This document shows, one piece after another, positions 4,480-56,420 of a stretch of 64,000 bases of DNA. The translations under genes and the position numbers were made by a program. This stretch comes from Streptomyces sannanensis. Its GTDB lineage: Bacteria > Actinomycetota > Actinomycetes > Streptomycetales > Streptomycetaceae. Location of the stretch: positions 1,116,001-1,180,000 of the forward strand of contig NZ_BAAAYL010000001.1 in the NCBI RefSeq assembly GCF_039536205.1, in the 5' to 3' direction. The notes under the pieces are model-generated. The model had not been told where the DNA came from. It worked only from the letters and a program-made list of their open reading frames with translations, and did no database searches. The first letter of the stretch is position 1. The number at the start of each line of letters is the position of its first letter.

Positions 4480-4612
4480 TCGTTCTGCCTCCCCCCTCTT
4501 TCCCGAGTGCGACGCGCCGCCTCTCGCTCACCCTGGGTCACGGATCACCGGCCCCGCCACATCCCGCGGTCCCTTTCACGCACCCTTCGGTCCGCCACCC
4601 CCCGCGGGTACG

Positions 4613-6607
4613 ATGCAACGAGATCGGTCAAATCCCGTCCGCGACAAGGCGGTTCAGCAAGCCGCCGCAGGGTGCGCACCCGGCGGCACGGCATGGGGGG
4701 CACGGTTGGTGGGGGACGTGAGGGACTTCGGCACGCCGGGCACACAGGCCCCGGCCGATCTCGCCTGGCTGCGCGGGCTGGACGCCTACACCATGGGCGC
4801 CTATCCGCAGGCCGAGGACGAGTTCAAGGCCGCCGTACGTATCGACCCGGGCATGGCCGACGCCTGGCTCGGCCTCCATGCGCTGCGCGTCGACACGACG
4901 ACCGCGCTGCTGCGCATGTACCGGCACCGCGACCGCTTCGGCGAGCAGCGCACCCGCCACCGACGGACCCTGAACTCCTGGTACTGGCTGGGGTGGTGGG
5001 TCCAGCCGGTCCTGGAGAGCCCGCGCGATCTGCTGCTCGCCCATGCCTCGCACTGGCTCGACGGACGCCATGTCCCGGAGCTCGACCGGGCCCTCGCCGG
5101 CCTGCCGCCCGTCGACACCGACCAACAGGTCCGCTTCCTGCACGCCTGCCGGGCCTATCTGGTCAAGGACTGGGAGCAGCTCGTACGCCACACCGAGCCG
5201 ATCGTCGACGACCCGCTGCTGGGCATCGAGGCCGGGCTGTTCGGCGGGATGGCCCGGGTACGGCTCGAGATGTACGGGCAGGCCGAGCCGCTGCTGACTG
5301 CCGCGCTGATGCGGTGCCGCAGCGAGCAGCCCCAGCGCAAAGAGCTGCGCTACTGGCTCGCCCGTGCCCTCGATGGCACCGGCCGCACCGCGGCCGCGCT
5401 GCCGCTGTACCGTGCGGTGCACCGCGTCGACCCCTCCTTCATGGACACCGCGGCACGGCTCGCCGCCATCGCCGAGATCGACGGATTCGACGACCCCACC
5501 GACCTGGCCGCGGTCTCCCTGAACGGGTTCGGCCAGGACACGGCCGAGGCGCAGAACGGCGAAGCCGACCCGCTCTTCTGGCCCGACCCGGCGGACGGCC
5601 GCGATCCGCGGACCATCGGCGAGACCCTGATCCCGCCCGTCGTCCCCGCAGGGCCGGCCGACTCCGTACGGGAGAAGGCGGTCTTCCCCGTGCAGCCGGG
5701 CCCCCCGCAGTTCCCCGCCGGGCCCACCGATCCCGAACTGCTCGCCGAGGCGCTGGCAGAACTGGAGCGGATGGTCGGCCTGGAGCCGGTGAAACGTCAG
5801 GTCAAGGCGCTCTCCGCACAGCTGAACATGGCCCGGCTACGAGCCGATCAGGGCATGCCCGTACAGCCGCCCAAACGTCATTTCGTCTTCTCCGGCCCTT
5901 CCGGGACCGGCAAGACCACGGTCGCCAGGATTCTCGGCCGGGTGTTCTACGCCCTGGGGCTGCTCGGCGGCGACCATCTGGTCGAGGCCCAGCGAGCCGA
6001 TCTCGTCGGCGAGTTCCTGGGGCAGACCGCGGTCAAGGCCAATGAGCTCATCGACTCGGCGCTCGGCGGGGTGCTCTTCGTCGACGAGGCGTACAGCCTC
6101 TCCAACACCGGCTACAGCAAGGGCGACGCCTACGGCGACGAGGCCCTCCAGGTCCTCCTCAAACGCGCCGAGGACAACCGCGACCATCTGGTCGTCATCC
6201 TGGCCGGCTACCCGGAGGGCATGGACCGGCTGCTCGCCGCCAACCCGGGCCTTTCCTCCCGCTTCACCACCCGGGTGGACTTCCCCTCGTACCGGCCGCT
6301 GGAACTGACCTCCATAGGCGAGGTGCTGGCCGCCGAGAACGGCGACACCTGGGACGAGGAGGCGCTGGAGGAGCTGCGCAGCATCAGCGGGCATGTCGTC
6401 GAGCAGGGCTGGATCGACGAGCTGGGCAATGGCCGCTTCCTGCGCACGCTGTACGAGAAGAGCTGCGCGTACCGGGATCTGCGTCTGTCCACGTACGCGA
6501 CGCAGCCCACCCGCGACGATCTCGCGACGCTGCGCCTGCCCGACCTGATGCAGGCCTACGGTGAAGTCCTCTCGGGCCGCGGGCCCCAGACCCCGCCGCA
6601 GCTCTGA
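4613..6607 (+). CDS. TPR-containing AAA+ ATPase of CbxX/CfxQ (EccA/SpoVK-like) type
   Basis: About 664 residues. The N-terminal two-thirds is helical with tetratricopeptide-like repeats, for example YTMGAYPQAEDEFKAAVRI. After a Pro-rich linker comes a CbxX/CfxQ AAA+ domain: Walker A GPSGTGKTT near residue 427, Walker B GVLFVDEAYSL near 485, then sensor and arginine-finger segments (SSRFTTRVDF). The same layout, TPR plus AAA+, occurs in EccA of type VII secretion, but no ESX genes are nearby. The start is uncertain: ATG 4613 is annotated, while GTG 4709 has a better-spaced purine run (GGGGGG, 8 nt). Likely a protein-remodelling ATPase of unknown client. Confidence 0.85.
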   Translation: MQRDRSNPVRDKAVQQAAAGCAPGGTAWGARLVGDVRDFGTPGTQAPADLAWLRGLDAYTMGAYPQAEDEFKAAVRIDPGMADAWLGLHALRVDTTTALLRMYRHRDRFGEQRTRHRRTLNSWYWLGWWVQPVLESPRDLLLAHASHWLDGRHVPELDRALAGLPPVDTDQQVRFLHACRAYLVKDWEQLVRHTEPIVDDPLLGIEAGLFGGMARVRLEMYGQAEPLLTAALMRCRSEQPQRKELRYWLARALDGTGRTAAALPLYRAVHRVDPSFMDTAARLAAIAEIDGFDDPTDLAAVSLNGFGQDTAEAQNGEADPLFWPDPADGRDPRTIGETLIPPVVPAGPADSVREKAVFPVQPGPPQFPAGPTDPELLAEALAELERMVGLEPVKRQVKALSAQLNMARLRADQGMPVQPPKRHFVFSGPSGTGKTTVARILGRVFYALGLLGGDHLVEAQRADLVGEFLGQTAVKANELIDSALGGVLFVDEAYSLSNTGYSKGDAYGDEALQVLLKRAEDNRDHLVVILAGYPEGMDRLLAANPGLSSRFTTRVDFPSYRPLELTSIGEVLAAENGDTWDEEALEELRSISGHVVEQGWIDELGNGRFLRTLYEKSCAYRDLRLSTYATQPTRDDLATLRLPDLMQAYGEVLSGRGPQTPPQL

Positions 6608-35244: not shown

Positions 35245-37098
<1,854 letters not shown>

Positions 37099-45130: not shown

Positions 45131-45256
45131 AGCCAAATTCCTACCAGACGCCACTGACAGTGGCGGCTGGGCGAGTGCCGCCCGAGATCAGGATCGGCGG
45201 CGGTGAGGCCCTTCACTGCGAGGCTCGCGCCTAGGCCCCGTCCGGCCGGTCATGCC

Positions 45257-45380
45257 GGGCTCGCGACGCCCGGCACCGCACCTCGCCGCGTTGTCGTCGG
45301 TCGCCGATGTCCCCCAGCTACCGCTGGGAGGTGCCCCCACCGCATGGACTCCCTCCTCCGCCTTGCGATGCACGGCACCA
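45257..45380. mobile_element. decayed MITE-like element, copy C
   Basis: Blocks GCTCGCGACGCCCGGCACC, CACCTCGCCGCGTTGTCG and CCGCCTTGCGATGCACGGCA match the interior of copies A and B in the orientation of B. The CTAG ends and the terminal inverted repeats are missing and the middle is replaced by a family 1 palindrome (45310-45338). Located between priA and metK, upstream of the metK terminator. Confidence 0.6.
45310..45338. repeat. GC-rich palindromic repeat (family 1) inside copy C
   Basis: CCCCCAGCTACCGCTGGGAG then GTGCCCCC, the single-copy form of the family, nested within the decayed element. Confidence 0.7.
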
Positions 45381-45500
45381 CCGGGACACCAGCCGCTCTG
45401 CGGCGGGCGCTCACTGATCCGGCCTGACCGACCGGACAGGACCTCGCTCCAGATGTAACCGTCGCCTTCGCACCGGGCGATCGTCAGCGTAGCGCGCATA

Positions 45501-49795: not shown

Positions 49796-50632
49796 TCAAC
49801 CGGTGACGGCTGCCCTCACCTCGTCCGCGAAACGGGCGGCGGACTCGCGCAATCCCTTCACATCCGGACCGTGCCGCAGCACGCCACGGCTGACGCTCGG
49901 GACCACGTTGCGCACGGCCGTACCGAACACTCCGGGCAGGTCGGCCGGGGTCGCGCCCTGCGCGCCGATGCCGGGGGCGAGCAGTGGCCCGTTGATGTCC
50001 AGGTCCACACCCGCGTCACCGAGGGTCGCGCCGACGACCGCGCCGACCGAGCCGAGCGGTTCGGCGCCCTCGTTCTCGGCGCGCATGTGGTCGAGCATCA
50101 ACTGCGCCAGGGACTTGCCGTTCGCGGCCGTCGACCGCTGCACCTCGGCACCCTCCGGGTTGGAGGTGAGGGCGAGAACGAAGACACCGCAGCCGTTCAC
50201 CACGGCTGCGTCCAGCGCCGGGCGCAGCGAGCCGAAGCCCAGGTAGGGGCTGACGGTCACGGCGTCCGAGAAGAGCGGGCTGCGCGGGTCGAGGAAGGCG
50301 GCGGCGTACGCGCCCATGGTCGAGCCGATGTCGCCCCGCTTGGCGTCCATCAGGACGAGCGCGCCGGCCGCCCGCGCCTCCTCGACCGCCTTCTCCAGCA
50401 CGGCGATGCCGCGCGAGCCGAAGCGCTCGAAGAACGCGGACTGCGGCTTGAGGACGGCGACCCGGTCGGCCAGGGCCTCGACGGTCGTACGCGTGAAGCG
50501 CTCCAGGCCGTCGATGTCGTCGTTCAGGCCCCAGTCGGTGAGCAGCGAGGCATGCGGGTCGATGCCGACGCACAGCGGACCGCGGGTGTCCATGGCACGG
50601 CGCAGACGCGCGCCGAAGGGCTCGATGGTCAC
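49796..50632 (-). CDS. pyrF: orotidine 5'-phosphate decarboxylase (type 2)
   Basis: A 278-residue enzyme for the last step to UMP. The catalytic Asp-Lys array is [15 protein letters not shown] near residue 93, and the subfamily-2 length and [18 protein letters not shown] terminus fit actinobacteria. GTG 50632 overlaps the pyrD stop (GTGA), so translation is coupled. It is the last gene of the pyr operon. Confidence 0.96.
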
Positions 50633-51738
50633 TGGGAAACCTTCCGGGTCTCGGCGCCGACCGCTTCGGCGATGGTGGCGTACGGGCTGGCCTCGAGGCG
50701 GGCGGCGAGGCCCTTGTGGATCGCGCGGGCGTAGAACGGGCCCTCGTAGATGAAGGCGCTGTAGCCCTGGACGAGCGTGGCGCCGGCCAGGATGCGCTGC
50801 CAGGCGTCCTCGGCGTTCTCGATGCCGCCGACACCGACGAGGGTGATCCGGTCGCCCACGCGCGCGTACAGGCGGCGCAGGACCTCCAGCGAGCGCTCCT
50901 TCAGCGGGGCGCCGGACAGGCCGCCGGTCTCCTTGACGACGGCCGGGTCGGACTTCAGCCCGAGGCCGTCCCGCGCGATCGTGGTGTTGGTGGCGATGAT
51001 GCCGTCCAGGCCGAGCTCGAGGGCGAGATCGGCGACGGCGTCGACGTCCTCGTCCGCGAGATCGGGCGCGATCTTGACGAGCAGCGGGACACGCCGGCCG
51101 GTGACCGTGCGGTCGGCGGCCTCGCGGACGGCGCTGAGCAGCGGCCGCAGGGCCTCGGTGGCCTGGAGGTTGCGCAGGCCGGGGGTGTTCGGGGAGGAGA
51201 CGTTGACGACGAGGTAGTCGGCGTGGCGGGCGAGCCGCTCGGTCGACGTGACGTAGTCGGCGACGGCTTCCGCCTCCGGGACGATCTTCGTCTTGCCGAT
51301 GTTGACGCCGACGGTCGTCCTGAAGACCGGATTGCGGGCCGCCAGGCGCGCGGCGACGGCGGCCGAGCCCTCGTTGTTGAAGCCCATGCGATTGATCAGC
51401 GCACGGTCCGGTACGAGCCGGAAGAGCCGCTTCCTGGGGTTGCCCGGCTGCGGCTGGGCGGTGACGGTGCCGATCTCGATGTGGTCGAAGCCGAGCATCG
51501 CCATGCCGTCGATCGCGACTGCGTTCTTGTCGAAGCCGGCGGCGAGGCCGAAGGGGCCGTGCATGCGCAGGCCCAGGGCCTCCGTGCGCAGCTCCTTGTA
51601 GCGGGGCGCGAGGACGGCCGCGACGAACGTACGCAGCACCGGGATGCGGACGGCGAGCCGGATCCAGCGGAAGGCCAGGTAGTGGGCTTCCTCGGCGTCC
51701 ATCCGCTTGAAGAAGAGGTTGAAGAAGAGTTTGTACAT
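50629..51738 (-). CDS. pyrD: dihydroorotate dehydrogenase (quinone, class 2)
   Basis: A 369-residue membrane-associated flavoenzyme that oxidises dihydroorotate with quinone. The N-terminal helix pair ([21 protein letters not shown]) is the class 2 membrane anchor. FMN and substrate segments are [31 protein letters not shown], and [16 protein letters not shown] with the catalytic Ser. GAGGAA precedes the ATG. A 13-bp hairpin and a MITE-like element lie between it and carB, so its expression may be partly uncoupled from the upstream genes. Confidence 0.96.
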
Positions 51739-51769: not shown

Positions 51770-51799
51770 GAGGGGGACACCGCTTTCGGTGTCCCCCTC
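51770..51799 (-). terminator. hairpin between carB and pyrD
   Basis: A perfect 13-bp stem (GAGGGGGACACCG at 51770-51782 and its complement at 51787-51799) with a CTTT loop on the plus strand. It lies 31 nt upstream of pyrD, 8 nt beyond MITE copy A. It may end the carB message or act as an attenuator of pyrD-pyrF. Confidence 0.75.
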
Positions 51800-51807
51800 C
51801 TGGGCTG

Positions 51808-51973
51808 CTAGTGCTGTGGCCGGAAAGGTTTGCCGGGAAGCTCGCGGCGTCCGGTGCGGTGCATCGCAAGGCGGAGCATCGCAGCTCGTACTCGGCCGTA
51901 CTCGCGCGATGCGACAACGCCGCGAGGTGCCGTGCCGGACGTCGCGAGCCGGTGAACCTTTCCGGCCACAGCA

Positions 51974-51977
<4 letters not shown>
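51808..51977. mobile_element. MITE-like element, copy A (intact)
   Basis: A 170-bp element with perfect 23-nt terminal inverted repeats starting CTAGTGCTGTGGCCGGAAAG. CTAG forms both extreme ends. The interior is also largely self-complementary (GCTCGCGGCGTCCGG near the left, CCGGACGTCGCGAGC near the right; GCATCGC and GCGATGC inside), so the whole element could fold into one long hairpin. Its right end contributes the TAG stop codon of carB (51974-51976). It carries no transposase. CTAG targets and TA duplication are typical of IS630/mariner-type elements. Confidence 0.85.
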
Positions 51978-55277
<3,300 letters not shown>

Positions 55278-55285
<8 letters not shown>

Positions 55286-56420
55286 GCTGGCCCTCCATCA
55301 GGGAAACGAAGCGGTCGAACAGGTACGCGGCGTCGTGCGGGCCCGCGGCCGCCTCGGGGTGGTACTGGACGCTGAAGGCCGGCTGGTCGAGCAGTTGGAG
55401 GCCCTCCACCACGTTGTCGTTCAGGCAGACGTGGGAGACCTCGGCGCGGCCGTAGGGGGTCTCGGAGACCTTGTCGAGCGGGGCGTCGACGGCGAAGCCG
55501 TGGTTGTGCGCGGTGACCTCGACCTTGCCGGTCGTACGGTCCTGCACCGGCTGGTTGATGCCGCGATGGCCGTACTTCAGCTTGTACGTGCCGAAGCCGA
55601 GCGCGCGGCCCAGGATCTGGTTGCCGAAGCAGATGCCGAACAGCGGCGTCCTGCGCTCCAGCACGCCCTTCATGACCGAGACCGGGTGGTCGGCGGTGGC
55701 CGGGTCGCCGGGGCCGTTCGAGAAGAACACGCCGTCGGGGTCGACCGCGTAGATGTCCTCGACGGTGGCGGTGGCGGGGAGCACGTGCACCTCGATGCCG
55801 CGCTCGGCCATCCGGTGCGGGGTCATGCCCTTGATGCCCAGGTCGACGGCGGCGACGGTGAACTTCTTCTCACCGATCGCGGGGACGACGTACGTCTCCT
55901 TGGTGGCGACCTCGGCGGAGAGGTCGGCGCCCTTCATCTCGGGCTGCTGGCGCACCTCGGCGAGCATGGTGCCCTCGTCCGGCAGTGCGTTGCCGGAGAA
56001 GATGCCGACGCGCATGGCGCCGCACTCGCGCAGGTGGCGGGTGAGGGCGCGGGTGTCGATGCCCTGGATGCCGACGACGCCCTGGTGCCGCAACTCCTCG
56101 TCCAGCGAGCGCTTGGCGCGCCAGTTGGAGGGGACGCGTGCGGGGTCGCGGACGACATAACCGGACACCCAGATACGGGAGGACTCGGGGTCCTCGTCGT
56201 TGACGCCGGTGTTGCCGACGTGCGGGGCGGTCATCACGACGACCTGGCGGTGGTACGACGGGTCGGTGAGGGTCTCCTGGTAGCCGGTCATGCCGGTGGA
56301 GAACACGGCCTCGCCGAAGGTCTCCCCCACGGCCCCGTAGGCGCGGCCGCGGAAGATGCGGCCGTCCTCCAGGACGAGTACGGCGGGAGTCCTGGCGGCT
56401 CCCCTGGTGGAGGTCGTCAT
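55278..56420 (-). CDS. carA: carbamoyl-phosphate synthase small subunit
   Basis: A 380-residue glutaminase subunit supplying ammonia to CarB. The class I amidotransferase nucleophile is [13 protein letters not shown] (Cys near 266) and the His-Glu pair is [12 protein letters not shown]. The N-terminal domain begins [22 protein letters not shown] overlaps the stop of the PH-like gene (ATGA) and the stop overlaps carB. All pyr genes here are tightly coupled. Confidence 0.97.

Follow-up and report, generated by a model that had tools for sequence, protein, structure and literature searches.

The element at the carB stop codon

The window, the whole 64-kb stretch of Streptomyces sannanensis DNA analysed here, contains a carA-carB-pyrD operon on the minus strand, with a 170-bp element placed between carB and pyrD. 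The features of this locus and of two further elements in the window are as follows.

50629..51738, minus strand: pyrD, quinone-type dihydroorotate dehydrogenase (ORF and profile evidence)
51770..51799, no strand assigned: conserved hairpin between carB and pyrD, 8 nt outside the left end of the element
51808..51977, no strand assigned: miniature element of TIR1 type, 170 bp (end repeats; relatives' site without the element)
51808..51830, plus strand: left terminal repeat including CTAG (inverted-repeat comparison, genome matches)
51837..51952, plus strand: conserved hairpin core of about 114 nt (covariance model R1, 121.5 bits on plus and 40.7 on minus)
51955..51977, minus strand: right terminal repeat including CTAG (inverted-repeat comparison, genome matches)
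51974..51976, minus strand: carB TAG stop codon within the right CTAG (reading frame, relatives)
51974..55285, minus strand: carB, carbamoyl-phosphate synthase large subunit (ORF and profile evidence)
55278..56420, minus strand: carA, carbamoyl-phosphate synthase small subunit (ORF and profile evidence)
35245..35545, no strand assigned: second element with the same ends, 301 bp, on a TAG stop (core match 35301-35412, minus strand, 42.5 bits)
45231..45446, no strand assigned: third element, boundaries set by eye, with CTAGGCCCCGTCCGGCCGGTC-type ends (core match 45271-45380, minus strand, 33.4 bits)

The original prediction described a 170-bp element bounded by CTAG with perfect 23-bp inverted ends, and its coordinates proved exact. 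We found that the inverted arms extend from the 23 perfect base pairs to 29 nt at 93%. The predicted self-complementary interior, giving one long hairpin, was also confirmed: a single-hairpin fold was obtained for the carB-sense strand (-115.6 kcal/mol, z -11.6) and for the plus strand (-135.4 kcal/mol, z -15.9). Although the prediction treated this interior as incidental, it is more remarkable than the rest of the element.

When the carB region was compared by BLAST with 61 genomes, 57 matched, and 28 of the 30 loci were the carB loci of relatives. In 24 of these 28, carB ends in CTAG without the element; the remaining 4 have no CTAG there, and they do not outweigh the 24. The element at carB was found in this genome only and is absent from the 28 relatives' loci examined. 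The claim that the right end provides the carB stop held in part. The TAG does sit in the right CTAG, but it was not supplied by the element: the carB of relatives already ends in CTAG, so the stop is native and was duplicated by the insertion. Similarly, the carB-pyrD hairpin is real and is present in 26 of the 28 relatives, but its earlier label of 'terminator' is not established, because a scan for hairpins with a T-run found none at 51770-51799.

Copies, target sites and partner transposases

Within the 64-kb window, the 23-nt end matched at 4 places with at most 3 mismatches, compared with 0.00 expected from shuffles. A whole-genome search at the same threshold gave 47 forward and 50 reverse matches, and the reversed control pattern gave none. 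These 97 places, examined as 65 loci, revealed many dispersed copies, as had been anticipated. Paired ends were mostly 68 to 391 bp apart (583 and 1470 bp at L040), and some ends had no partner within 7 mismatches. That copies elsewhere should carry terminal repeats at CTAG was true of most of them, but not of some whose ends have decayed. The two ends differ from each other at fixed positions, commonly ..GTGGCCGGAAAGGTTTGCCGGG versus ..GTGACCGGAAAGGTTCACCGGC, and the element therefore has a direction. In other species, 80 named loci with these ends were found among the matches listed (77 Streptomyces, 2 Yinghuangia and 1 other actinobacterium), with TA-to-TA spans clustering at 163, 166 and 199 bp.

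We then asked about the target. Among 54 complete copies from other species, located by a scan that fixed TAG only and not the outer C or G, the base outside TAG was C in 53 and G in 51; in the more decayed copies of this genome it was C in 31 of 34 and G in 29 of 34. Together with the CTAG of relatives that lack the element, these counts support CTAG as the target, as originally proposed. CTAG itself is rare: after masking of elements, the 590 kb of other-species loci L146-L225 contain 78 sites. It is found at both ends of the element and once in relatives, and the palindrome hides whether 2 or 4 bp were duplicated. The ends of the GGGCTGTCCCG type (3 copies) read CTAA/TTAG, which fits TA duplication within a CTAG target and not duplication of CTAG.

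The proposed association with TAG stop codons was also observed. In this genome, 24 of 59 ends had their TAG as the stop of an incoming coding frame, and in other species 43 of 123 did (35-41% of TAG-bearing ends), against 12 of 152 other CTAG half-sites (8%; Fisher p 9e-8 and 2e-8). Within the window alone, the background was 0 of 14 half-sites, and for a second end type, TIR3, the TAG was the stop of the incoming frame at 4 of 20 ends. To call coding frames, a codon model was built from 21 window ORFs; it was right for 26 of 26 test tiles, these being taken from carA, carB and pyrD and probably lying within its training set. Of the genes flanking elements, 129 point inward and 46 outward. 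The stop-codon association may reflect either targeting or survival of insertions. The second copy in the window, 35245-35545, repeats the carB story of insertion into a stop-codon CTAG: at 23 loci of the home genus its right-hand gene ends in TGA in 18 and in TAG in 5, and in 3 of these 5 (L422, L428 and L429) the TAG lies within CTAG.

The transposase had been predicted to be encoded elsewhere, and this was the case, with intact IS630-family genes between the same kind of ends in other Streptomyces and fragments only in this genome. At L172, in S. acidiscabies, ends 1655 bp apart enclose a 393-aa IS630-family transposase (NF033545, 152.9 bits, cut-off 100; PF13358, DDE_3, 55.2 bits). Over 29 nt, the right end of L172 is identical to the right end common among the MITEs, from which the window copy departs at a single base. 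Relatives of this transposase at E <= 1e-80 were present in 114 of 295 genomes of the genus. Ends of the same series flank both sides in 28 of 30 transposase loci (at most 9 of 29 mismatches), one end being missing at L293 and L303, compared with 0 of 30 when the letters were read backwards. The far end is separated from the transposase by several hundred bases in many IS630 loci, and the autonomous element at L172 carries a passenger gene for an Imm51 immunity-like protein (4603-4920, minus strand).

In the S. sannanensis genome there was no relative at E <= 1e-80. We found 11 weaker matches, mostly fragments, the best having 81% over residues 268-391, together with a longer relative at 43%; one fragment lies 62 bp inside a left end at C1:2021147. 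Wide-spaced ends (L040, L062 and L087) were considered as an intact partner and rejected, as Pfam detected no transposase in twelve frames. No intact transposase of the IS630 subgroup was found in this genome.

By these features, the 51808-51977 element is a non-autonomous IS630-type MITE. It is short, has terminal inverted repeats and no transposase, exists in many dispersed copies and has ends in common with an autonomous element. A parent-derived interior, which is typical of many MITEs though not all, was not found.

The core and its ends

In the BLAST search of the 61 genomes, the interior alone matched dispersed loci elsewhere, many of them with other ends (20 loci examined). By BLAST, the core was present in 42 of the 65 loci with these ends in this genome, over at least 60 nt in 36, and in 69 of the 80 other-species loci among the matches listed; many copies in this genome matched the core only partially. 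Because the core was not seen by BLAST in 23 of 65 and 11 of 80 loci, respectively, the ends also move without it.

To examine the fold, we aligned 32 diverse cores found by BLAST or by their ends, with no structure model used (alignment A1). RNAalifold gave -70.6 kcal/mol and 14 pairs with two-sided changes for the window plus strand, compared with -29.8 kcal/mol and 8 such pairs for the reverse complement. The plus-strand pairs comprised 1073 Watson-Crick, 223 G-U and 8 A-C; since G-U outnumber A-C 223 to 8, one strand is conserved. A second alignment (A3) held 38 diverse sequences aligned with MAFFT. Most of those not in A1 had been detected with R1, so that pairing in A3 is biased upward; 93.4% of its cells were paired versus 74.7% in shuffles. 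Two-sided changes occurred in 26 of 30 pairs and, as is characteristic of a structured-RNA family, exceeded those of shuffles (163 such cells versus 43.9; 0 of 500). When partners were slid by 1-3 columns, pairing fell to 28-59%. The ratio of G-U to A-C in A3 was 163:12, an asymmetry also present in A1, which was found without a structure model; binomial p values for such ratios overstate the case, as related copies are not independent. In the end arms, the ratio was 99:11 for the window type (44 distinct pairs), 25:5 in 18 others, a few of them being internal repeats, and 3:1 for TIR3 (three pairs).

Conservation was highest in the internal-loop blocks AA(G)/N and GA/GACAA (mean identity 0.88 and 0.91), with single loop columns down to 0.71 and N itself at 0.47; mean identity was 0.73 and 0.67 in the outer stem and 0.53 in the upper hairpin. 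At the level of aligned sequences, these results demonstrate a strand-specific structure of the core. The combination of conserved loops, G-U bias and two-sided changes is one that neither neutral palindromes nor template switching would predict. Binding sites of a protein that reads the double strand might account for the conservation of letters, but would leave the two-sided changes unexplained. For the internal loop, a kink-turn was considered and set aside, the expected G-A pair being absent. In Rfam, no gathering score was reached; the best match of the window (mir-1397, 26.9 versus 70, E 0.002) was set aside as a likely GC-rich hairpin, and the core from 16 further loci had no match at E <= 0.1.

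We used R1 to determine the distribution of the core. There were 111 matches in this genome at E <= 0.01, some of them partial. In a sample of the class, at E <= 1e-6 and with a filter that loses weak matches, the core was found in 34 of 246 genomes, 10 of 103 genera and eight families. A sample of the phylum at 1e-5 gave 6 of 246, five of them from the home genus; the sixth was a weak match from outside the class. Among annotated plasmids, 39 records matched the window core, all from Streptomyces or Streptantibioticus; in the 30 of these that were listed, 25 had no feature under the match, 4 were unannotated and 1 had a hypothetical protein. Phage records gave no core match at E 1e-3, and viral contigs no exact-pattern match.

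Matching terminal repeats were detected, by a loose rule, around 142 of 203 cores and not around the other 61. These repeats fell into 19 clusters, ten of which (124 copies) are clear CTAG-type ends; the other nine, which are internal repeats, near variants or unclear cases, were excluded. The window type and TGCCCCTCCCGGCAAC, both among the ten, are partly alike. The commonest length was 165-170 bp in most of the ten types, the exceptions being the type of 178 bp and those that reach 221-277 bp. The 178-bp type, TIR3 (CTAGGGCGTGTTTCGAAAGT), has 43 end matches in this genome. Its full-length partner, C1:2748351-2749806, contains an IS5-family transposase in two frames, which scored 61.9 and 93.9 on NF033580, below the cut-off of 110, and also matched PF13340, and a glyoxalase-like gene as passenger (L407 139-963, plus strand). 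As the TIR3 partner belongs to the IS5 family, the same core occurs with IS630-type and IS5-type ends in one genome. The window itself holds two end types, one in the elements at 51808 and 35245 (IS630 type) and another in 45231-45446, whose core is split by an extra hairpin. Extra hairpin units (GGGGGCACC..GGTAGCTGGGGGAG), often in tandem, were seen within the core arms at L138, L139, several of L342-L376 and 45231-45446, with units in both arms at L138 and L139. At L360, L361, L364-L366, L369, L370 and L407, elements lie in the CTAG centre of another palindromic repeat (..AAGATCTTCATGAGTCTT-CTAG-AAGACTCATGAAGATCTTG.. and variants).

The core was absent from the inside of the 30 IS630 transposase loci, L172 and the IS5 parent. 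One clear core match in L407 falls outside the IS, and the scores in L292 and L306 were at chance level (E 0.38 and 0.99). We therefore dropped the view that an IS parent contributed the core, as neither kind of parent has it inside.

Interpretation and relation to known elements

Comparison of the sequences establishes the insertion site and the matching ends, from which we infer the transposition act itself. The element is probably an IS630-ended non-autonomous transposon at carB whose interior is a one-strand structured core with exchangeable ends, likely the functional or selected part. An IS630-family transposase acting in trans would have moved the element into the TA of the CTAG that contains the carB stop, and insertion at the stop would have left carB intact. 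The interior is a conserved structured core rather than leftover IS sequence, and it is carried between ends that belong to different transposase families; these ends would be exchangeable vehicles. The core would favour the spread or persistence of the element by acting as a structured RNA or, as a second choice, as folded single-stranded DNA. In a wider form, to which we give even odds, it would be a mobile structured-RNA gene of the class Actinomycetia, in which the core of about 114 nt is selected and elements of about 167 bp borrow the ends of any CTAG-targeting transposase (IS630-type, IS5-type, perhaps others). That the core acts as RNA, and that it has a function, we infer.

Several other explanations were weighed against this reading. 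Relative to the genes pointing into it, the core is sense in 65 cases and antisense in 64 (30:20 in this genome, 24:28 in other species and 11:16 in distant ones); because its orientation is random, the core is not tuned as part of host mRNA, and a sense role there was dropped. The same figures, and the presence of the element at carB in this genome only among the 28 relatives' loci, make a regulatory role in the host operon, such as that of an RNase III site or a transcription barrier between carB and pyrD, quite improbable, despite the position of the element inside the pyr operon, the excess of genes pointing inward (129 versus 46) and the proposal of such a role for Correia/NEMIS elements in the available text of PMC2229807. 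Random orientation relative to genes is, on the other hand, compatible with a core that folds as single-stranded DNA, for instance in a transposition intermediate or on the template of the lagging strand, and is bound by a host or transposase protein. Such DNA also favours G-T over A-C, and the strand-specific fold, G-T pairs and conserved loops would fit, but the core showed no significant orientation bias relative to replication from an assumed central origin (p 0.25, 0.054 and 0.057 for three assumed origins), and we regard this as possible, with modest weight.

Is the element simply an internally deleted IS630 with a functionless palindromic interior, the shared core going back to one ancient element that later had its ends altered by drift or by conversion to those of other IS? 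The IS630-type ends, the CTAG target and mobilisation in trans all fit, no core is detectable in some of the elements that have these ends, and RUP with IS630-Spn1 offers a known parallel (PMC2229807, in the portion available). We nevertheless consider this unlikely, since no core lies inside the 30 transposase loci, L172 or the IS5 parent, and neutral palindromes should hold neither loop blocks of about 0.9 identity nor a G-U to A-C ratio of 223:8. The two-sided changes could also stem from DNA template switching that re-copied one arm onto the other, instead of from selection on the fold. This kind of homogenisation is known for long inverted repeats, but the process restores perfect complements, neither makes nor keeps one-strand G-U pairs and would not conserve unpaired loops, which makes it very improbable here.

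The preferred reading, a selected core with borrowed ends, sets the element beside several known systems. RUP of Streptococcus pneumoniae is an intergenic repeat of about 100 bp in high copy, with IS630-Spn1-like ends and a TA target, and is thought to be mobilised in trans; the elements described here resemble it, their own TA target and movement in trans being probable (PMC2229807, available portion). That portion reports no functional motif for RUP, and the elements differ from RUP in that their interior is a conserved one-strand hairpin common to other end types. Correia/NEMIS of Neisseria and CIR of Caulobacter are likewise small repeats with RNA-level folds, the CIR structure being phylogenetically conserved, but a core common to the ends of different transposase families is not described for them in the same portion of PMC2229807. 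The partner's transposase family is that of ISY100 and IS630 (IS630/Tc1/mariner), and the elements may share the TA duplication of ISY100 and recall the CTAG preference of IS630, the latter cited through PMC2170065 (both as given in its available text); unlike these, the window element has no transposase and no IS interior. The IS5 family (NF033580, PF13340) provides the partner of the same-core TIR3 elements in this genome, whereas the partner of the window element belongs to another transposase family. The available text of PMC3765725 and PMC8269248 contains neither 'transpos' nor 'inverted', and the open-licence titles and abstracts listed include no description of these elements in Streptomyces. 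Six core and end letter strings did not occur in the open-licence papers searched.

The usual view of MITEs is that each is a dead relic of a single insertion sequence. In these elements it is the ends that are exchangeable, and the middle stays conserved across several actinobacterial families and bears the signature of selection for a fold on one strand, which suggests that the middle and not the ends is the working part of the element. The stop-codon statistics suggest how a gene-dense genome tolerates so many elements. If the core works as RNA, it would constitute an abundant, largely unannotated non-coding class in genomes that are mined for antibiotics, and would make it possible to ask directly whether mini-transposons have their own function.
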